This document shows, in pieces, positions 54,563-64,000 of a stretch of DNA of 64,000 nt (within the stretch, counting starts at the first letter, position 1; every line of letters starts with the position of its first letter). Source of the DNA: Streptomyces sp. Go-475 (lineage in GTDB: Bacteria; Actinomycetota; Actinomycetes; Streptomycetales; Streptomycetaceae); the NCBI RefSeq assembly GCF_003330845.1, contig NZ_CP026121.1, forward strand, positions 4,445,501 to 4,509,500, written 5' to 3'. Both the position numbers and the translations under genes were made by a program. Under the pieces are notes generated by a model, which saw only the letters and a list, made by a program, of their open reading frames with translations, was not told the DNA's origin and searched no databases.

Positions 54563-57500
54563 TCACGGCCCAAGATGCACCACCGCGGCGCAGGCGAGCG
54601 CGTGTTCGGAGGATTCGGTGATGGCCTCTCGCACGACGTGGTGGAGGGCGTGGGCCGAGCGCTCCGGGTGAAGCCGTCCGTCCGGGCCCAGCAGTCGGTC
54701 GTACACGGCGCGGGCGAGGTCCTCGGCGGAGCCGTCCGCGCCCCACACCGGCAGCTGGATCACATGGTCGAAACCGGCGGCCTGGAAGCGCGTCGCCAAG
54801 GCCCATGCGTCGCTCTCGAGGACCAGGTCGCTGCCTTCCGTCTCGCGGACCGAGAGGTAGGCCAGTGCTCCGTCGACGGGACGGAGTGGGTACTGCTGTT
54901 CGTGTGAGCCGTCGGCGCCGAACCGCAGCTGCGGGGCGCCCTGGTGGAGACCCGCACGGCCGACGAAGTGGAAGCAGGGGTGATCGCCGAGCTGCGCCGC
55001 CACGGTCGCGCCCGTGGCCCGCTCGCCGTGCAGGACCCGGGCGTGCGGGACGCGCCGGCGGATCGCTTCGATCTCCCGCTGCCCGTACGGCAGGTCGTCG
55101 TCCGCGAGGACCAGCAGCATCGGCTGGAAGGGCTCGCGAGCCGTGTGCCTCTCGTGGTGACGCGCGGCCGTGAGCGCCTGGAGACTCGAGGTGTAGGAAT
55201 GAACCGCGTGATCCATGGCGTTGTCGTGCCGATGTCCCGCCAGGTGCAGGGGCAGGACCGTGAACGGGTCGGTGGGGCACCACCACACACGGGGCAGGGC
55301 GTCGGACGGGACCGTGCGGCCCACCCGGACATCCGTTGCGCCGGGGTATGCCCTGCCGCGGCCGGGGGGAACGGTCGTCCCGAGTGCGGTGAGGACCGGT
55401 CCCACCACTCGTTCTCGGAGCCAGTCGAGCACGGCCCACGCCTGGTTTTCCCGCGCCGCCGGATGGTCGTAGCCCATCGCGAGCCGGTATCTGACCGAGT
55501 TGTCCGACAGGTGGACGAGGCTCACCCCGGTCAGCGGGAGCACCGACACGCCCTGGCGTGTCACGAGCAGGGCGTCGCAGCGGTGGGCGGCGGCGTTGAG
55601 GACGACGACGGGGCCTTCGCTCGCGGCCGCCACCAGCCGTTCGACGGGCACGGGGGCGAGGAAGTCCTCGAAACCGGGAAGGGTGCGCGCGATTGCGACG
55701 AGTTGCTCCAGCCGGGCCGGTGCCGGACCCTGTCGCGGGTGGTTCCGCGCTGCGGGCGACTGGGGGGCGAGATGGAGGAACGCCCACCACCAGCGCAGTT
55801 CCGCGAAGAGTTCCGGCGCGGACTCCCACAGCCGGTCCACCCCGGCGTGGAGGTCCTGACGCCAGGCTGCCAGGAGAACGTTGCGCTGTTCCAGGAACTC
55901 CAGTGCGCGTTCCGGTGCCCCCGCCTCGATCGCGTGGGCGGCGGCCCCCCGGCTCAACTCCTCCCAGCTCCGGACGAGGTCCGCGTGCTCCCGGCCGGAC
56001 GTCAGCAGCATCAGAGGCATCAGAGCGGCGACGGTCTCGTAGCTCAGGACGACGTCCTCGGAACGGTTGTGGCGCATCGCCAGGTTTCCCCAGATGAGTC
56101 CGGCCCGGAGGCGTTGCATCGGTGGGGCGTCCCGGCTGACGGCGATGTCGCGCGCCCTCTCGGCCGCACGGCGGAGGGAGGCGTGCGACGGGTTCGGCCG
56201 GAGGGAGACGAACGCGGTCTGGGCCAGGACGATGGGCACCGACTCGGGATCCGTGAACCGGGGGTCGAGGTCGTCGTGGACCAGCAGCGAGTGCAACTCC
56301 TCCAGGGCGCTCGCGACCTCCGCCGACGAGGAGTCGAGGGTGTGCAGTTCGAGCAGGGCGGAGGCGCAGGCGACGCTCCGGCCGTCGTCCTGTGCGACAG
56401 CGAGCCCCCTGGTCGCTCTGAGGCTTTCGACGGCCTGGCCGAGTGCAGCGCTGTCCCCGGTCGCCTTGTATCTCAGGACCAGGCATTCGCCTTGCTGCAC
56501 CAGTGCCGCGTGCTGGTAGGGCAGCTCCGGCTCGTGCCGGGAGTGGAAGACGACGTCCCGCGAGGCGTCGACGGCCCGGTCGAGGGCGGACACGGCCCCG
56601 GTCCGGCGGAAGCTGTCGAGCAGGCACCGGTTCAGGCCGATGAGCGCCGCGAGCCTCCAGACGGACCTGCTCGGCAGGGATCTGGCCGCCCGTTCGGCGA
56701 GGTCGACCGCCTCGTCGAGATCCGCGTGCGCGGACAGCACGGCGGCGCGCGTCCGCAGCACGTCACTCAGCGCGTGTCGCAGCCGGGCGCGGAGCAGCTT
56801 GTCGTTTCCGGGGCAGATCCTCACCGCCGAACGGCACTGCGTCTGCGCTGCCTCGAGAGCTTCCCGCGAGCCGTCCCGCCAGAACCGGGCCATCTGCACC
56901 GACGCGAGCACAGCCGCCCGTTCGGCCTGCACGGAGCGCGGTTCCTGGCGGGGCGCGACGGCCTCCGCCCAGTGCTCGGCCTCGTCCAGGTCGACCGGAT
57001 CCCCTTCCGCCTCGTACCGGGCGACGAGGGCCCGGGCGAGCGGCAGCGCCGCGGCCTCCCGGTCGGCAGGTGACGCGAACGACCCGAACGCCGTGCTCGC
57101 GAGATCCAGAGCCTGGCGCAGCGAGCCCCGGCGCGGCTGGATCTCGTGGAGGAGCACGTAGGTGTCGAGGAGTTCCGCGACGAGCCGCCCGACGGGGACG
57201 GAGCCGCCGAGCAGCCGGTTCACCCACGTCTCGAGGGTGTCCACGGACCGGTACAGCTGGGAGACGTCCCCGGTGTGGCAGAAGATCTGGCGCTGGGCGG
57301 CCCCCATGAGGGCGCCGGCCCGCATGCTCAGCTCCAGGTCCGGACCGCCGGTGAGGTCCTGGACGACGTGGACGGTTCGTTCGAGTGACCTTCGCGAGCC
57401 GAGACGAAGACCGTGGAGGTACAGCGTCTCCGCCGCCTCGCGGCCGAGTCCGGGGAAGTCCTGTGGTTCGTACCCGGCGTCCAGGGCGCGCTGCGCGAGA

Positions 57501-58510
57501 GTGAGTGCCTGGCGGAGCACCACGGTGTCGTCGGTCCGGCGGAACTCGTCGAGCAGGTCTCTGATCGCCCGCGTCAGCCGGGGCACCAGCTCGGGGTCCA
57601 CCGCGGGTCCGATCAGGCGGGCCAGTTCCTCGTGGGGGGTCACGTCCGGTCGCGGCGCGGACGGTACGGGTGCGTCGATGACGTAGACGTGACCCGCGCC
57701 GGTGCGCAGACCGACGGGGCCGGTCCCCACGTCGACGCGGACGACCTCGGCCGCGTCGACCCGCACGGTACGGACGGTGGTGCCCGCGGTGACCTCGACG
57801 ACCCGGGGAGAGGTGTCGGGGACGAGCACGGCCGCCGCGTCCGTGCCCCTGACCTTCCCCAGCAGCAGCACCTCGCCCGCGCGCAGGACGCCCAGCGGGG
57901 CCTCGCCGAGGGCCGAGGCGATGGACGACACGGTGGCCAGGGTGAGTTCGGGCGGCGCGCCCGGGTCGAGGGACGGAACGTGCGGGCGGGCCGCGTTGGC
58001 GAGGCTCCACGCGGTGGCCGTCGACAGGGCCTCCGAGGGCAGCCGCCGCGAGGCCTCCGCGAACCAGCCGGCCAGGCCGGACCGGTTCTCCCGCACCAGC
58101 GCGTGCAGGGCGCTGCCGAGGTGCTGGGTCGCGCTGTCGGTGTCACCGCTGAGGCTGTCCCAGGTGATCTGTTCCTCCAGGAGCAGCGCGGGCGACAGGC
58201 CGCGGTGGAACTCGGTGACGATGTCCATGACCTCCCGGAGGCGCGGCTCGCCCTGCAGCCTGTCCACGAGGCCCGCCCGCAGGTAGGGCAGGCATTCCGG
58301 GATCAGCGCGATGGCCTCGGGCGTGCGGGCGCCCACCCAGTCGCTGAACCAGAGGTCGGCCTCGGCGCCGACGTCCAGGTGGGGCAGGAGCCGGAGCCTG
58401 ACCGCGCGGATCAGTTCGGGTTCCATGCGGGTCGCGATGCTCAGCACGGTGGCGAGTTCCATCGCACCGGCCGGCGGCGGGGGCGGCAGCTCCCCCGGTG
58501 GTCCGGTCAC
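54563..58510 (-). CDS. Giant TPR-CHAT protein with an apparently dead CHAT domain
   Basis: A 1,315-residue protein, last gene of the TIR-MoxR-vWA operon. Residues 1-350 are a unique N-terminal region, about 350-1000 are helical repeats of the tetratricopeptide type, and the last 300 are a CHAT (caspase/separase-like) protease domain ending WGADGSAEDLARAVYDRLL. In active CHAT domains the catalytic pair sits in HFxCHG and LSACxT; here these read HFVGRAG (Arg1185) and LSVRET (Arg1222), so both catalytic residues are replaced. It may be a pseudo-protease scaffold or sensor. The GTG start overlaps the stop of the vWA-like gene (GTGA). Confidence 0.82.
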   Translation of the reverse strand: MTGPPGELPPPPPAGAMELATVLSIATRMEPELIRAVRLRLLPHLDVGAEADLWFSDWVGARTPEAIALIPECLPYLRAGLVDRLQGEPRLREVMDIVTEFHRGLSPALLLEEQITWDSLSGDTDSATQHLGSALHALVRENRSGLAGWFAEASRRLPSEALSTATAWSLANAARPHVPSLDPGAPPELTLATVSSIASALGEAPLGVLRAGEVLLLGKVRGTDAAAVLVPDTSPRVVEVTAGTTVRTVRVDAAEVVRVDVGTGPVGLRTGAGHVYVIDAPVPSAPRPDVTPHEELARLIGPAVDPELVPRLTRAIRDLLDEFRRTDDTVVLRQALTLAQRALDAGYEPQDFPGLGREAAETLYLHGLRLGSRRSLERTVHVVQDLTGGPDLELSMRAGALMGAAQRQIFCHTGDVSQLYRSVDTLETWVNRLLGGSVPVGRLVAELLDTYVLLHEIQPRRGSLRQALDLASTAFGSFASPADREAAALPLARALVARYEAEGDPVDLDEAEHWAEAVAPRQEPRSVQAERAAVLASVQMARFWRDGSREALEAAQTQCRSAVRICPGNDKLLRARLRHALSDVLRTRAAVLSAHADLDEAVDLAERAARSLPSRSVWRLAALIGLNRCLLDSFRRTGAVSALDRAVDASRDVVFHSRHEPELPYQHAALVQQGECLVLRYKATGDSAALGQAVESLRATRGLAVAQDDGRSVACASALLELHTLDSSSAEVASALEELHSLLVHDDLDPRFTDPESVPIVLAQTAFVSLRPNPSHASLRRAAERARDIAVSRDAPPMQRLRAGLIWGNLAMRHNRSEDVVLSYETVAALMPLMLLTSGREHADLVRSWEELSRGAAAHAIEAGAPERALEFLEQRNVLLAAWRQDLHAGVDRLWESAPELFAELRWWWAFLHLAPQSPAARNHPRQGPAPARLEQLVAIARTLPGFEDFLAPVPVERLVAAASEGPVVVLNAAAHRCDALLVTRQGVSVLPLTGVSLVHLSDNSVRYRLAMGYDHPAARENQAWAVLDWLRERVVGPVLTALGTTVPPGRGRAYPGATDVRVGRTVPSDALPRVWWCPTDPFTVLPLHLAGHRHDNAMDHAVHSYTSSLQALTAARHHERHTAREPFQPMLLVLADDDLPYGQREIEAIRRRVPHARVLHGERATGATVAAQLGDHPCFHFVGRAGLHQGAPQLRFGADGSHEQQYPLRPVDGALAYLSVRETEGSDLVLESDAWALATRFQAAGFDHVIQLPVWGADGSAEDLARAVYDRLLGPDGRLHPERSAHALHHVVREAITESSEHALACAAVVHLGP

Positions 58511-59469
58511 GGAAGCCTCACCGTGGCCCGGCTCGCGGTGGTCGTGCGGTCCCAGCTGACCAGGGGCAGCAGGCCCGTCATCCACCGGGGCCAGCGCCGC
58601 GGGGGATACGGGGAGAGCGCGACGACGCCGCACCCGGCCCGGGTGACGAGACCGACGAAGTGCTCCCACTCCTGCCGGGTGCCGCGCTGCGGGTCGTCGG
58701 GCGGTCCGCCCAGGCCGAGGTCCGACAGCAGCAGGACGGGCCTGCCGGACTCGGGGGGGACGTAGGCGGTGCGGGTCCAGCGCGCGCCGGGCCCGGTGCC
58801 TCGCTGGGGGGTGCCGGAGAAATAGCCCACCTCGACCAGCGAGGGGCCGACCACCGCGCGGACGCGGTCGAGGAGTTCGTTCTGGTCGCGGCGGAAGGGC
58901 TGCATGCCGGGGCCTCGGTCGACCAGCACCTGGACGCCGTAGCGCATCGTGGGCACGGGGAGGCGGGGCAGTCGGCGGACCGGGCGCCCATGGGCGAGGG
59001 TGTCGATGAGCGCCGGGATGTCCACCGCGCCCTCGGGGACCCGCCTGGAGACCATGGCCCGGAGGATGGCGCTGGTCCAGCCGGGAACGAACAGCGGAAG
59101 ATGCGGGAGCGGGACGCGTTCGGCCGTCGGCCGGGCGAGTGGCCGCACCGGTTCCCGGGGTGTGGGCACGGCCTCGACGCGGACCGGCGGGAGCAACGGC
59201 AGTTCCTCCGGCAGGTCGGCGTTCGGCGTCTCCTCTTCCGCGGCGGTGGCCGGCGGCGGCTCGTGAGCGGGCTCCGGACGCCGTTCCCGGCGGGGGGCCT
59301 CGACCGGAGCCCGGGGCCCCTCGGGTTCGGCGTAGGGCGTGACCTGCCCGGTGTCCGGTACGGCAGGGGGGACGAACCCCAGCATCTCCAGGACTCGGGC
59401 CCGCTCCTCGTCGGTCCGGGCGACCTCCAGGGCCCGGACGACATCGCTCACCCAGATCTGCGCACGCAC
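58507..59469 (-). CDS. Degenerate vWA-like protein of the MoxR/TIR operon
   Basis: A 320-residue protein. Residues 1-32 (WVSDVVRALEVARTDEERAR) form a small helical unit that could be an adaptor; about 33-120 is a Pro/Glu-rich linker; about 170-320 looks like a vWA fold (YGVQVLVDRGPGMQPFRRDQ, then PVLLLSDLGLG), but the MIDAS motif DxSxS is changed to DRGPG, so metal binding is doubtful. It resembles the SAV_2336-type proteins of Streptomyces. It starts 4 bases after the MoxR gene with GGAGAGG and overlaps the CHAT gene, so MoxR, vWA and CHAT products are probably made together. Confidence 0.65.
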   Translation of the reverse strand: MRAQIWVSDVVRALEVARTDEERARVLEMLGFVPPAVPDTGQVTPYAEPEGPRAPVEAPRRERRPEPAHEPPPATAAEEETPNADLPEELPLLPPVRVEAVPTPREPVRPLARPTAERVPLPHLPLFVPGWTSAILRAMVSRRVPEGAVDIPALIDTLAHGRPVRRLPRLPVPTMRYGVQVLVDRGPGMQPFRRDQNELLDRVRAVVGPSLVEVGYFSGTPQRGTGPGARWTRTAYVPPESGRPVLLLSDLGLGGPPDDPQRGTRQEWEHFVGLVTRAGCGVVALSPYPPRRWPRWMTGLLPLVSWDRTTTASRATVRLP

Positions 59470-59473
59470 CGTG

Positions 59474-60397
59474 TCACCTCTCCTGCTGCGGCGACTTGGC
59501 CAGCGTCAGACTCCGCACCAGGGGCCACTGCGGGTACCCGGGGCGGACGTTCAGCTCGCGGCAGGCGCGCAGGGCGTCCAGATACTCGGCGGTACTGGGC
59601 AGCCGCTCGCGGCCGAGCTGCTCGTTCTCCCGCACGTGTACGAGCTCATCGGCCAGGGCGACGGCGAGATCGAGCATCTCGCTGTCGAAGGGCACGCCCT
59701 CGTGTTCCAGATGCGTTTGTGCGATCCGCACCAGGTTCTCGGGGGTGGGGCCGGGCAGGGTGTACGTGACGCAGCGCCGCAGGAACGCCTGCGGGAGCTG
59801 CCGTTCCCCGTTGGTGGTGATGACGATCAGCGGGGCGGGGACATCGGGCTCGCGCCGGACGGTCGTCCCGGTCTCGGCGATGGTGAACTCCTGCGAGCCC
59901 AGCGGGACGAGCAGGCTGTTCGGGACGTCCGGGTCGGCCTTGTCGATCTCGTCGATGAGGACGACGGCCCCCCGCGTCCCGTGCTCGTGCTGGAACCGGT
60001 TCAGCGGATCATGGTGATGGACGTCCCGGAGCAGGCCCCCGCGGGTGCGGGCGGACTCGGGGGCGAGCGACCACCACAGGACACCGGGGTTGACGTAGGC
60101 GCCGTCGTTCAGCCTGCCGTGGTGCGCCTGGGCGTCTCCCAGCCTGCGCACACTGTCGAACGTCCACAGCAGGTCCGTCGCCTGGGTCCTGGACGTGACC
60201 ACGTGTTCGTAGTACCGCAGGTGCTTCTCGCGGGCGTAGAACGGGGCCAGGGAGGACTTGCCCGATCCCGGGTCCCCGCTCAGCAGCAGCGGTCGGTCGG
60301 TGGCCAGGGCGACGTCGATCGCGAGCTGGAGCTCCTGCGACAGGACGTAGATCCTGCCGTCCCGCGAGTCCGGGCCATGGGGGGCGAATCGGGACAT
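59474..60397 (-). CDS. MoxR-type AAA+ ATPase of the TIR/CHAT operon
   Basis: A 307-residue AAA+ ATPase. Walker A GDPGSGKS at 41-48, Walker B VVLIDE at 145-150, sensor 1 ITTN near 196 and a candidate arginine finger in LRRC at 206-209. It is shorter than the MoxR at 3089 and lacks a lid extension. Expected to remodel or arm the neighbouring vWA/CHAT/TIR proteins using ATP. It starts 8 bases after the TIR gene. MoxR with vWA and a large associated protein is the core of the published VMAP-type conflict systems. Confidence 0.85.
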   Translation of the reverse strand: MSRFAPHGPDSRDGRIYVLSQELQLAIDVALATDRPLLLSGDPGSGKSSLAPFYAREKHLRYYEHVVTSRTQATDLLWTFDSVRRLGDAQAHHGRLNDGAYVNPGVLWWSLAPESARTRGGLLRDVHHHDPLNRFQHEHGTRGAVVLIDEIDKADPDVPNSLLVPLGSQEFTIAETGTTVRREPDVPAPLIVITTNGERQLPQAFLRRCVTYTLPGPTPENLVRIAQTHLEHEGVPFDSEMLDLAVALADELVHVRENEQLGRERLPSTAEYLDALRACRELNVRPGYPQWPLVRSLTLAKSPQQER

Positions 60398-60405
60398 GAA
60401 GGCTC

Positions 60406-61674
60406 CTAGCAGAGGCCGGCGAGACGGTCGGGCAGTTGTCTGAGGCGTTTGCTGCGGAGCGCTGCCGTCTTCTCGTCCTCCGCGGTGAGCAGGGGCTCCA
60501 GCAGCACCGCGTTCTTGAAGGCGCTCCTGACCTTGTCGTCCGGGGGCGCGGTGCCCGTGGTCACCAGGATGATCAGCCAGGAGAACGCACGGTGGAGGAG
60601 GTTGACGGCCTCGGCGAATTCGGCGTCGGGCGGGCGCAGTTCGTTGATGACGAGGTAGTGGGTCCGGGAGCCGAGGTCGTTCGGGAGCATCCGCTCCTCC
60701 GGGGAGTCGGCGTCGAAGAACTCCTTCCAGACCGCGTCCTCCCAGGTGCGGATCCGTTCCCCGACCCGGTCCTCGCCCACGGGCAGGCTTCCGATCGTCT
60801 TCGTCTCGAAGCCGTGGCTGGCGTTGCACGTGGCCCGGCGTATGTACTGCTCGGCCGTGCTGTGCGAGAAGGCGTTGAGCAGGAGGGTCATCTCGTGCGG
60901 CTGCCGGCCCGGGGCGGGCAGGGCACCGCGGGCGGCCTCCTCGTCGACCCAGGTGGCGTTCAGCGCGCTGGTCAGCCGGCGGATGGTCTGATCCTGGAGG
61001 GACGGAGCGAGGACGTCGAGTGCCTTCTCCATCCGCTCGGGAGGGGCCACGAGGAACTGATGGGCCAGGAAGAGGCAACCGCCGTGCCGGCCGGTGACGT
61101 GCGCGCGGAACTCCGGCTCGACCTTGAGCTCCCTCGCGGCCTCGGCCAGCACGCCCGGCTCTGTCCGGGCCTCGGACAGGTACAGGGCCAGCCGGCTGAG
61201 CCAGACACTCATCGGGTCCCGGCCCGTGGCCGCCCGGGGGAGTTCGGCGAAGCGTCCCAGAACCTTGTCGGCGAGGCTCCTGGCGTCCGGCTCGGCGTCC
61301 CGCGCGGTGCGCGCGAACTGGATCGGCCGGAGCTCCTCCAGGCCCGCGTGCTTGACTGCTCCGGTCGTCAGGCCGTCCAGCAGCACGGGCACCACGAGCA
61401 GGGGCGCGCCGAGCGCCCTGCGCCACATGAGGATGTTGACCTCGCGCCGTACCCAGTGGGACCGCAGGGCGGCCTCGTTGAGCAGGACGACGGCCGCGTC
61501 GCAGCGGGCGAGCCAGTCGACGAGTTCGGGACGCCACTCGTCGCCCGGTTCGATGCCCGACTGGTCCACGAGCGGGGTGTGGGACGTGCCGCGGAGGCCT
61601 TCCTCGATCTTCTGGAGTACGGCCATGGCGAACGCGTCGCCCCGCGCACTGTGACTGATGAACACGTCCCCCAC
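60406..61674 (-). CDS. TIR-domain protein with unknown C-terminal region
   Basis: A 422-residue protein. The TIR domain covers about 1-140: DVFISHSARGDAFAMAVLQK, EPGDEWRPELVDWLARCDAA and SHWVRREVN, where Glu78 matches the catalytic glutamate of TIR NAD-cleaving enzymes. Activated bacterial TIRs destroy NAD+ and kill or halt the cell. The C-terminal 280 residues are unfamiliar; they contain Cys/His-rich TCNASHGFETK and WLIILVTTGTAP and may receive the activation signal. GTG start at 61674. First of four closely spaced genes (TIR, MoxR, vWA, CHAT). Confidence 0.82.
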   Translation of the reverse strand: MGDVFISHSARGDAFAMAVLQKIEEGLRGTSHTPLVDQSGIEPGDEWRPELVDWLARCDAAVVLLNEAALRSHWVRREVNILMWRRALGAPLLVVPVLLDGLTTGAVKHAGLEELRPIQFARTARDAEPDARSLADKVLGRFAELPRAATGRDPMSVWLSRLALYLSEARTEPGVLAEAARELKVEPEFRAHVTGRHGGCLFLAHQFLVAPPERMEKALDVLAPSLQDQTIRRLTSALNATWVDEEAARGALPAPGRQPHEMTLLLNAFSHSTAEQYIRRATCNASHGFETKTIGSLPVGEDRVGERIRTWEDAVWKEFFDADSPEERMLPNDLGSRTHYLVINELRPPDAEFAEAVNLLHRAFSWLIILVTTGTAPPDDKVRSAFKNAVLLEPLLTAEDEKTAALRSKRLRQLPDRLAGLC

Positions 61675-61717
61675 GCAGCCGATTGTGATCCATCGTCAGC
61701 CGTGGTGCGGGCAAGTC

Positions 61718-62965
61718 TCACAAACCGGCGTCGAACTCGGACTTGGCGACGATGATGCGCCAGCGGCGGAGTTCCTCGGTGAGGGTCGACTCGACGCGGA
61801 CGACCAGCGACCGGAACCGGACGGCGCGTTCGGCGTCGGCGGGCCCGGCCAGCAGACCGCGCAGGGTGTGCTCGTGCTCCAGCAGTTCCTGGCGGGTCTC
61901 CCGGTAGGAGGCCGCCAGGCGCTGCGAGGCGAACAGGTTCTGCACCGCCAGGGCCATGTTGCACAGGGGTGGCAGGCCCGCGGCGAGCAGGGCGATGACC
62001 GACGAGGTGGTCGACGGATCGTCGCCGGTCCGGCCCGAGTGGAGGAGAACGGCGTACGCCACGGCGACGGCGACCGCCGCCAGGACCGCGGCCTTGGCCG
62101 TCCTGCCGAGCCTGTCCTCGGTGCGTTCGCAGGTACCGGCTGCCAGCTCGAAGAAGAGGATCTGCCGCTTGACGCGGTAGTCGAGATAGGTCCGCATCCG
62201 CTCGGTGGTCTCGGCGGGGGTGGCGGGCAGGCTGCCGTCCCCCTGCTGCCGGACCGCGTCCTGCCAGGGGCTCTCCGTGCCGTCCGGGCCCCGGTCGGAG
62301 AGCCGGGCGAACGTGCCGAGTTCGGCGGGGCCGGCGGCGGCGAGCCGGCTCAGCCGGGCGTCGCGGACCTGCCCGGCTTCCTCATCGGTGCGCCCCAGGT
62401 AGGGACCGACGGCCGCGAGGAGGAGGAACATCTCGCGGCGGAAGAGTTCGGCCCTGATCCGGCTGGTGACCCAGGGCTGGGACGGCTCCTGACTGGTCCA
62501 GACCGTCCACACCATGGAGACGAGGAGCAGGCACTCGGCGAGGACGAAACCGAGGCCCAGATCGCCGCCGTGCTCCAGGAACACCGTCTGCACGGTCAGG
62601 CACATCACCGCGAGCGCGGGCAGCACGGCGAGCCGGATGCCGGTCGCGCGGTACCGCCCCTGCTGGTCGACCGGGGTGTCGCCCGCCGGCCGCGGGAGGA
62701 TGTTCGGGTAGTCGATCGGCCGGCGTATCTCCGGTGCGGGGGCCCATGCCTCACGCCGCGGCCGGGCGGCCCGGCGCCGGCGACGGTGCGCCCACCGCCG
62801 GCCGAGCAGGTACCCGCAGTCCAGGAGCACCAGCAGCCAGATCACCCCGACGACCGGCAGCGAGACGACGAAAACCTTTGCTCCGCTCAGCACGGCCGCC
62901 GTGGTCCAGGCCGACAAGGCGAGGCTCACCCCGACGACCACCCATATCCGCACCGAAGTCCGCAC
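61718..62965 (-). CDS. SLATT/DUF4231-like membrane protein of the TIR operon
   Basis: A 415-residue protein with two spans near the N-terminus (about 10-55), two more at about 105-150 and a pair at about 275-325. After the second pair comes RIRAELFRREMFLLLAAVGP and later MRTYLDYRVKRQILFFELAA, a pattern like DUF4231/SLATT proteins, which are predicted pore-forming effectors in conflict systems. A helical C-terminus follows. The GTG start is the likely first gene of the operon; the gap to the TIR gene is 43 bases. The family assignment is by pattern only. Confidence 0.6.
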   Translation of the reverse strand: MRTSVRIWVVVGVSLALSAWTTAAVLSGAKVFVVSLPVVGVIWLLVLLDCGYLLGRRWAHRRRRRAARPRREAWAPAPEIRRPIDYPNILPRPAGDTPVDQQGRYRATGIRLAVLPALAVMCLTVQTVFLEHGGDLGLGFVLAECLLLVSMVWTVWTSQEPSQPWVTSRIRAELFRREMFLLLAAVGPYLGRTDEEAGQVRDARLSRLAAAGPAELGTFARLSDRGPDGTESPWQDAVRQQGDGSLPATPAETTERMRTYLDYRVKRQILFFELAAGTCERTEDRLGRTAKAAVLAAVAVAVAYAVLLHSGRTGDDPSTTSSVIALLAAGLPPLCNMALAVQNLFASQRLAASYRETRQELLEHEHTLRGLLAGPADAERAVRFRSLVVRVESTLTEELRRWRIIVAKSEFDAGL

Positions 62966-63085: not shown

Positions 63086-64000
63086 GTGAACAGCACCTAT
63101 TCATCCGTCGAACGCCTGCTCGCGGCCGACCCCGCTTTCAGCCTTCGCCCCCTGCAAGTCGCCCAGCTCACCCGCGGCTGGGCCGTCGATGTCACCGCGG
63201 CCGACCTCGACATGCTCGCCGCGTCCGTCGACGCTCCGCGCCGGCTGTCGGCCAAGCGCGGTTGTCTCGGGGACACCGGCGCCAATGTGGAGCTGGCGCG
63301 GATGCTGGAGGAGCGGCCCGAGGACTTCGGCGCGGTCGGCCAGATCGTGCTGGGCGCGGATGCGGTCCAGCTCCAGCCCGGTCCGCGCCTGTTCGCCGAC
63401 ACCCTGTTCGTCGTCGGACTCGAATGCATCGACGGCCTCCAGCGGTTGAGGGTCATCGCCGACCTGCGGGACCGGCTGCCCCGCGAGCACCTGCGGCGGG
63501 CCGTGATCCGCCTGGAGATCCGCTGCGGCGCCGAGCGGGACCGGGCCCGCCATGCCTACGACGCCGAGGACCGCTACCGGAACGCGTCGACCGCCCAGGA
63601 CCGTTTGATCCGCTGTCCGAACATCCGCCGCCTGATGGAGGGCGACTGGGAGAAGGGGGACTTCGATCCCCGCCGGGGCATGACCGCGGGGCCCCATGGA
63701 TCGCGTTTCTCCATGGCCGAGGTGACGTCCGCCCTGGCCTGCCTGTCGGACGACCCGCTACCCATTGCCGCGAACCTGGCCGCCACGCCGGAGGGCCAGG
63801 AGGCCCTGTGGAGCGACCGCACCTCCGCGGTGTACCGCAGTGTCTTCCACGGCAGCATGACCCCGGTGGGCGTGATGCGTGCCGTCGAGGCGTGGCGGAC
63901 GGCGCGTGCGGCGCTGGCCGACATGCCGAGGAAGTCCCGGCAGGGGCACGGCCACCTCATCGAGTACGCGCCGGACCTGATCTGCTGGAAGGCCTGCCGC
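63086..64000 (+). CDS. DGQHR/AIPR-like protein, cut by the window end
   Basis: An open frame of 305 codons with no stop before the edge. The product starts NSTYSSVERLLAADPAFSLR and contains GLECIDGLQRL (DGLQR at 116-120), then RAVIRLEIRCGAERDRARH and ASTAQDRLIRCPNIRRLM. The DGxQR motif followed by a charged R/H-rich helix is the hallmark of DGQHR/DndB-like and AIPR (abortive-infection) proteins. The GTG start has no clear ribosome site; the gap to the divergent SLATT gene is 120 bases. Its position beside a TIR/MoxR operon supports a defence role, which is inferred. Confidence 0.55.
   Translation, partial: MNSTYSSVERLLAADPAFSLRPLQVAQLTRGWAVDVTAADLDMLAASVDAPRRLSAKRGCLGDTGANVELARMLEERPEDFGAVGQIVLGADAVQLQPGPRLFADTLFVVGLECIDGLQRLRVIADLRDRLPREHLRRAVIRLEIRCGAERDRARHAYDAEDRYRNASTAQDRLIRCPNIRRLMEGDWEKGDFDPRRGMTAGPHGSRFSMAEVTSALACLSDDPLPIAANLAATPEGQEALWSDRTSAVYRSVFHGSMTPVGVMRAVEAWRTARAALADMPRKSRQGHGHLIEYAPDLICWKACR

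Follow-up and report, generated by a model that had tools for sequence, protein, structure and literature searches.

A SLATT-TIR-MoxR-vWA-CHAT cassette of Streptomyces as a candidate TERNS3-type conflict module

The window analyzed here is a stretch of 64,000 nucleotides from Streptomyces sp. Go-475, corresponding to positions 4445501-4509500 of one contig of 8570609 bases. In a listing of its open reading frames (ORFs) with translations, five ORFs, all on the minus strand, span 54563-62965 and encode a SLATT-type membrane protein, a TIR protein, a MoxR-type AAA ATPase, a degenerate vWA protein and a giant protein with TPR and CHAT regions. On balance, we lean towards the view that this cassette is a TERNS3-type MoxR-vWA ternary conflict module with SLATT as its output and abortive infection as its outcome. 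Judged by the gene plan, the closest published class would be TERNS3 (Kaur et al., 2021, PMC8195603).

We speculate that the variable TPR/CHAT region of the giant, perhaps together with the C-terminal half of the TIR protein, senses a product of the invader. MoxR and its vWA co-chaperone would then spend ATP to remodel the complex, which would set a threshold. Remodeling may release or multimerize the TIR domain, which would cleave NAD+ into a signal of the ADP-ribose (ADPr) type. This signal, or the complex itself, may open SLATT and permeabilize the membrane, so that the infected cell halts or dies. CHAT would be a dead scaffold or decoy in the subclade of the window, and maybe a live protease in other lineages. 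The model joins two proposals of Kaur et al., the threshold set by MoxR-vWA remodeling (PMC7159879) and the NAD-derived ADPr signal of the TERNS3 TIR (PMC8195603), with the prediction for phage TIR-SLATT pairs that SLATT is a permeability effector regulated by ADPr derivatives (PMC9503650). In its most specific form, the model is a three-tier death circuit that passes from a MoxR-vWA threshold through a TIR-made NAD messenger to a six-helix SLATT pore, with a TPR-CHAT sensor/protease turned into a decoy or scaffold at least six times while the other parts stay intact. We put forward this form tentatively.

The five genes form a conserved unit

The genes are separated by gaps of 43, 8, 4 and -4 bases, as a preliminary description of this DNA had it, and the GTG start of gene 5 overlaps the TGA of gene 4. 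Scanning genome contigs with the vWA protein recovered seven loci, all from Streptomyces. Since all seven contigs retain the full set in unchanged order and orientation (with broken frames in one, L015), the cassette is a real unit and no chance row of ORFs. The preliminary description would have been called into question by a set rarely found together in other genomes; because the five genes travel together, this doubt falls away. In four assemblies (ACFY78, ABT373, OG562 and AB0D38), protein listings place the CHAT and SLATT locus tags 20 apart, the spacing expected between the first and the fifth gene if numbering proceeds in fives.

Among 392 genomes of the genus, a vWA profile is positive in 27, at 29 places, 20 of which show TIR, MoxR, vWA and the N-terminus of the giant in that order. 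With a TIR profile, 20 of the same 392 genomes match at an E value of 1e-30 or better. Clade I accounts for six of the 29 places, each with all five genes: the window, the repeats of L010, L012 and L013 (found again as L016, L017 and L019), and the new L018 and L020. Distinct clade-I genomes total 10. Clade II comprises 14 places (L022-L035) with the order TIR-MoxR-vWA-giant N-terminus, and the gene map displays giants of varied length. In the eight places of clade III (L036-L043), the order is MoxR-vWA-giant-TIR; MoxR is not matched in L038, nor the giant in L040, and L042 breaks off ahead of TIR. The vWA score of L021 (genome G338) falls between clades I and II. Its 9-kb contig carries a truncated TIR, MoxR and vWA; the TIR lacks the first ~92 residues, and a TIR N-terminal piece is located on another contig. 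We regard L021 as a remnant or an assembly break. Run on 296 genomes spread over the phylum, a broad vWA profile matches three: the genome of the window and two others from its genus.

TIR, MoxR and vWA proteins

Gene 2 (60406..61674, minus strand) encodes the TIR protein of 422 residues, with the TIR domain at residues 1-148 (61231..61674). It matches Pfam TIR_2 at 3e-14, and nine of ten scanned relatives from clades II and III and a plasmid exceed the cut-off of this family, L036 being below it. The catalytic Glu of the TIR active-site motif is E78 in the window (61441-61443). It is kept in 43 of 43 rows; in four of these, the start of the domain is missing. The intact Glu agrees with the preliminary description, and by its motif the protein is probably a catalytically competent enzyme of the NAD-cleaving type. 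No phage record matches the TIR protein.

The C-terminal region of gene 2 (residues 154-418, 60421..61215) is resolved in the AlphaFold model (predicted local distance difference test score 85.5) into helices at 154-249, followed by a five-strand alpha/beta domain at 262-418. It aligns in rows from all three clades (alignment A7, 39 rows). Alignments A6 and A7 cover the loci other than L016, L017 and L019, L015 with broken frames, L021 with a truncated TIR and no giant, and L042 at a contig end. We propose gene 2 as a candidate for the TERNS3 third component; its C-terminal helices and alpha/beta domain fit the alpha+beta domain of TERNS3, a fit that does not prove identity. The VIA rows for this model are filled by the TIR domain and barely probe the C-terminal region. 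The plant NLR RPP1 (TIR-NB-ARC) aligned to the model over 269 residues with a root-mean-square deviation of 16 Å and was not used as evidence. The preliminary description saw a departure in the TIR being separate from the giant. On the contrary, fusion of TIR to the third component is described as the commonest TERNS3 arrangement (PMC8195603).

Gene 3 (59474..60397, minus strand; 307 residues) bears out the MoxR ATPase of the preliminary description. It matches AAA_5 at 1.8e-11, Midasin at about 2e-6, and the MadB_ATPase model at 3e-18, far under the cut-off of that model. Its Walker A (GDPGSGKSS, 60251-60277) and Walker B (VVLIDE, 59948-59965) motifs are constant in the seven-row alignment A2 except for one Ser/Ala.

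Gene 4 (58507..59469, minus strand; 320 residues) has no family match. The best matches of its AlphaFold model are vWA domains, by a margin that is not wide, and the model supports a vWA fold, in line with the first description. A short helical N-terminus and a low-confidence linker precede the vWA-like fold at 174-320, where D184 is invariant in alignments A3 (7 rows) and A6 (30 rows). Searching solved structures by sequence brought no useful match for the vWA protein, for SLATT, or for P0024, a relative of the giant.

SLATT is a recurring partner

Gene 1 (61718..62965, minus strand) encodes 415 residues with weak matches to Pfam DUF4231 and SLATT_1. The hydrophobicity scan displays six hydrophobic segments, predicted to be transmembrane, in three pairs (7-25/31-49, 112-130/137-155, 290-308/323-341). 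Among its relatives, P0208 and P0209 exceed the SLATT_1 cut-off of Pfam, and P0209 is under that of NCBIfam. A shorter SLATT class is found elsewhere; the SLATT of L028, with 296 residues, matches DUF4231 at 4e-17 and SLATT_1 at 5e-17, both over the cut-off. Comparing the profiles of the long SLATT of gene 1 and the short SLATT of L028 and its kin (E 2.9e-5, probability 74%) suggests that the two are related, though not strongly so.

All 10 clade-I genomes examined have a SLATT (the window, L009-L015, L018 and L020; L021 is not counted). The clade-I SLATT profile was run on 29 selected genomes, comprising 22 vWA-positive ones (of 27), G220 and six that the vWA profile does not match, with at most 62 first-look candidates scored per genome. 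It matches six, precisely the six with a clade-I cassette. A short SLATT lies immediately upstream of TIR in 4 of the 14 clade-II loci (L027, L028, L029 and L031). A relative of the L028 SLATT is located near the cassette in four of the eight clade-III loci (L036, L037, L039 and L040), that of L036 being in two pieces on the opposite strand. SLATT is a recurring partner in three lineages and on a plasmid. The SLATT-like nature of gene 1 was rightly described, whereas SLATT is not unique to this set; a restriction to the window's lineage is rejected, as SLATT also stands beside some FxsB- and FxsC-linked relatives and on the plasmid.

These data bear on a doubtful alternative, in which the TIR protein drains NAD+ and kills the cell directly, with SLATT as a membrane anchor or regulator and not as a messenger-gated pore. 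The catalytic Glu kept in every row accords with direct drain. So do 10 of the 14 clade-II loci, in which neither the long nor the short query finds a SLATT, and because none is found there, the core may do without it. We treat these misses as soft absences, because the short query also fails on the clade-I SLATT. On the other hand, SLATT occurs in all of the clade-I genomes examined, recurs elsewhere and keeps its hydrophobic pairs, and the published TIR-SLATT pairs are read, as a prediction, as messenger and pore (PMC9503650).

A giant with a constant head, a variable tail and a repeatedly lost CHAT dyad

The giant, gene 5 (54563..58510, minus strand; 1315 residues, alignment A4), has no Pfam match in the window; its relative P0024 matches CHAT at 3.2e-20. 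A search with residues 1-300, in which the 7988 candidates sharing the most words were scored, found 115 homologues, many with differing C-termini. According to precomputed Pfam tags and source names, these C-termini include CHAT, NACHT with a DNA/RNA helicase, a trypsin-type domain with NACHT, NACHT-WD40, NB-ARC-TPR, TIR-NB-ARC-TPR, TPR, and one with RelA/SpoT-type domains. Pfam scans of the giants of L028 (TIR, NB-ARC, TPR), L022 (TPR) and L034 (CHAT) concur. The giant has a constant head and a variable tail, and we propose its N-terminal ~300 residues (57614..58510) as a candidate vWA-L. In P0086, the N-terminal module of the giant occurs in a protein tagged PF04607, PF13328 and PF02824, which we take to be RelA/SpoT-type families. 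This part may possibly be an alarmone enzyme or a decoy at the effector position.

We compared the window with L009, L018, L010 and L011 by the ratio of nonsynonymous to synonymous substitution rates (dN/dS), obtained by a simple counting method without a significance test. MoxR has a ratio of 0.24-0.37. In the giant, residues 1-300 reach 0.39-0.49, and the TPR and CHAT parts, at 0.54-0.67, evolve fast yet under constraint. In the subclade with a dead CHAT, the dN/dS of CHAT is 0.55 (L009) and 0.67 (L018), versus 0.56 in the dyad-intact pair L010-L011.

In the CHAT region of the window (54566..55645), the catalytic His-Cys dyad is lost, with Arg at both the His position (54956-54958) and the Cys position (54845-54847). 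The dead CHAT of the preliminary description stands for these two positions, but the Arg-Arg state belongs to the window's subclade. Across 45 giants (the one in the window plus 44 of the 115 homologues, P0006-P0047, P0053 and P0071; the CHAT-tagged P0112 and P0116 are omitted), 17 keep the dyad and 28 have lost it. A dead CHAT is not a family-wide trait, and we reject that idea. The lost dyads read Arg-Arg in 16 giants (the subclade of the window), His-Asp in four, Pro with another residue in four, Ser-Cys in two, Thr-Cys in one and Arg-Tyr in one. On the tree, a quick build with support from the approximate likelihood ratio test SH-aLRT only and with some long branches and open forks, the dyad changes at least six times. 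The changes are probably losses, given that there are intact outgroups and intact intervening lineages. Several MoxR-vWA systems use inactive enzymes as effectors (Kaur et al., 2020, PMC7159879), and a dead CHAT fits this description. As the dyad is lost repeatedly while the TIR is unchanging, the output suggested, at least in the dyad-lost lineages, runs through NAD and the membrane and not through proteolysis.

Mobility, surroundings and peptide-system neighbors

The linear plasmid NZ_CP108601.1 (L050:8111-15977) carries, in annotated order, a DUF4231 protein, TIR, MoxR, a hypothetical protein and a CHAT-TPR protein. It is typed mobilizable, and insertion sequence elements lie a few kilobases from the cassette. 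Identity to the window is 36% for TIR, 58% for MoxR, 39% for vWA, and 30% over 554 residues for the giant, whose CHAT dyad is intact. The plasmid SLATT belongs to the short class (295 residues) and is 38% identical to that of L028. A second plasmid, NZ_CP107864.1, holds TIR, MoxR, a hypothetical (vWA) and a TPR protein, with no annotated SLATT.

The surroundings of the cassette differ, because its flank genes are mostly not shared among the clade-I loci. Those of the window are absent beside the cassette in seven of the nine other loci; the DEAD-box and DUF2809 genes adjoin it in L009 alone, and the divergent gene at 63086 in L009 and L018 alone. This divergent gene (63086-64000, extending past the window) encodes ~375 residues with a DGLQR motif and is found in 5 of 199 genomes of the genus; its relative in L009 matches nothing in Pfam (at 0.01) or NCBIfam. 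In L018 (L018:360-5516), the gene that comes after CHAT, with a 2-base gap, encodes 1719 residues combining caspase, iHD-CE and HSP90-like ATPase domains, a predicted further conflict protein appended to the cassette. Patchy presence, plasmid carriage, varied flanks, fast-evolving TPR/CHAT and the caspase neighbor in L018 amount to conflict-like behavior.

Genes of peptide-maturation type accompany part of clade II. By tblastn, FxsB-type radical SAM genes are located in six loci, L027-L032 (among them L027:4631-7098 and L028:11444-14901), and TIGR04269 (FxsB) is above its cut-off in both loci scanned, L028 and L030. An ORF of 88 residues in L027 reaches 53.5 bits against the YxD-tail cyclophane peptide model, whose cut-off is 55. 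A script for small precursors ending in FxSxx found none near the cassette of the window, nor in L027-L032; this negative says little, because the script fails even where FxsB is present. In clade III, a TIR-like protein of the FxsC type (171.6 bits, over the cut-off) is encoded directly 5' of MoxR in L037 (L037:11549-14315), with SLATT upstream of it; the same protein scores 24 bits against the antiphage EruA model, far under the cut-off. Kaur et al. (2020) connect peptide systems of this kind with VMAP and FtsH systems (PMC7159879); the peptide-system genes here accompany a TERNS3-like cassette.

The FxsB-type maturases of these six loci, and the near-threshold cyclophane peptide of L027, would suit a developmental or peptide-response signaling module of Streptomyces rather than a defense system. 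We consider this quite unlikely. The genome of the window has no FxsB above the cut-off (one weak 28-bit match genome-wide), and presence in 27 of 392 genomes, plasmid carriage and fast-evolving TPR/CHAT speak against it as well.

Weighing the conflict-module reading

CHAT-type proteases cleave and activate other targets, as in gasdermin systems. A TPR-CHAT protease that activates SLATT or TIR by cleavage, to which the 17 intact giants and the plasmid copy would lend themselves, is very unlikely, since the dyad is lost in 28 of 45 giants through at least six changes while the giant stays long and constrained, and it cannot be the mechanism of the window.

Several observations weigh against a TERNS3-type module with SLATT output. 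In clade III, the TIR gene comes last, unlike the published TERNS3 order. The match of gene 1 to NCBIfam SLATT_1 (6e-8) reaches 32.7 bits, under the cut-off of 41; the plasmid SLATT matches that of the window over just 27 residues; and L021, whose 9-kb contig carries no giant, joins the clade-II loci in lacking a SLATT match, in its case even at E 10. In gene 4, the metal site (D184, D250) is a degenerate metal-ion-dependent adhesion site (DRGxG) with Gly for the serines, and D250, invariant in the seven-row A3, falls under 90% in the 30-row A6. The empty-site test found the DUF2809 neighbor in 7 of 41 genomes of relatives (own included) and no empty site; in five DUF2809 stretches, no other flank gene stands beside it. 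Finally, sensing, threshold, messenger, pore and defense are inferred. What the data show is a conserved unit of five genes, intact TIR and ATPase motifs and a dyad lost repeatedly, with a vWA fold supported by the model.

The module reading is directly testable as a threshold-messenger-effector model, because the cassette is compact, complete in one operon and assayable, with a TIR and a membrane potential that can be assayed and with natural live and dead CHAT variants. If the three-tier circuit is true, it would link TIR-SLATT signaling with the MoxR-vWA ternary systems and give a natural set of variants in which to ask why immune proteases turn into pseudoproteases.

Comparison with known systems

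The preliminary description placed the cassette among VMAP-associated systems. We reject this membership: none of the five proteins matches a VMAP family in Pfam at E up to 1, the gene order differs, and the VMAP-specific MoxR N-terminal motifs WxhapG and PsWRxa (PMC7159879) are absent, gene 3 having no Trp in the residues preceding Walker A. The cassette resembles the VMAP/iSTAND systems of that paper in its MoxR-vWA core, its fast-evolving variable effectors and the use of inactive enzymes as effectors, but its effector is not fused to the vWA protein. The vWA-MoxR-VMAP genes close to CRISPR loci (PMC10910872) are a different gene set. In the GAP1 GTPase-centered systems (PMC7159879), SLATT likewise accompanies nucleotide-related effectors such as TIR; their core is a GTPase, where the cassette has MoxR-vWA.

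With Thoeris and the phage TIR-SLATT pairs, the cassette shares the idea that a TIR-made ADPr-type signal drives a partner (PMC9503650), and it adds a chaperone pair and the TPR-CHAT giant. Membership in Thoeris is rejected, as the TIR protein matches the type III model ThcB4 weakly, with 22.3 bits versus a cut-off of 220, and there is no ThsA-like partner among the five proteins. Likeness to FxSxx-COOH systems is seen in L028, whose giant matches FxSxx_TPR at 1.3e-236 with FxsB nearby; the window differs in having no FxsB, and CHAT in place of NB-ARC-TPR.

MoxR-vWA ternary systems have been proposed, on a case made by sequence analysis, as antiviral suicide modules of multicellular bacteria (PMC7159879, PMC8195603). 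With TERNS3, the cassette shares its layout, in which a 5' gene for the (here candidate) third component with directly fused TIR is followed by MoxR and by vWA as a gene of its own, and a further gene joins a constant module to variable effectors; both occur in actinobacteria (PMC8195603). In the main text of that paper, supplements aside, 'SLATT' appears nowhere and 'chat' solely in an author name. Within the main texts of the two eLife papers, supplements aside, and our literature searches, a nearby SLATT and a CHAT effector are undescribed for TERNS3. The cassette thus differs from TERNS3 as published in adding a SLATT gene and in having CHAT, repeatedly inactivated, as an effector.

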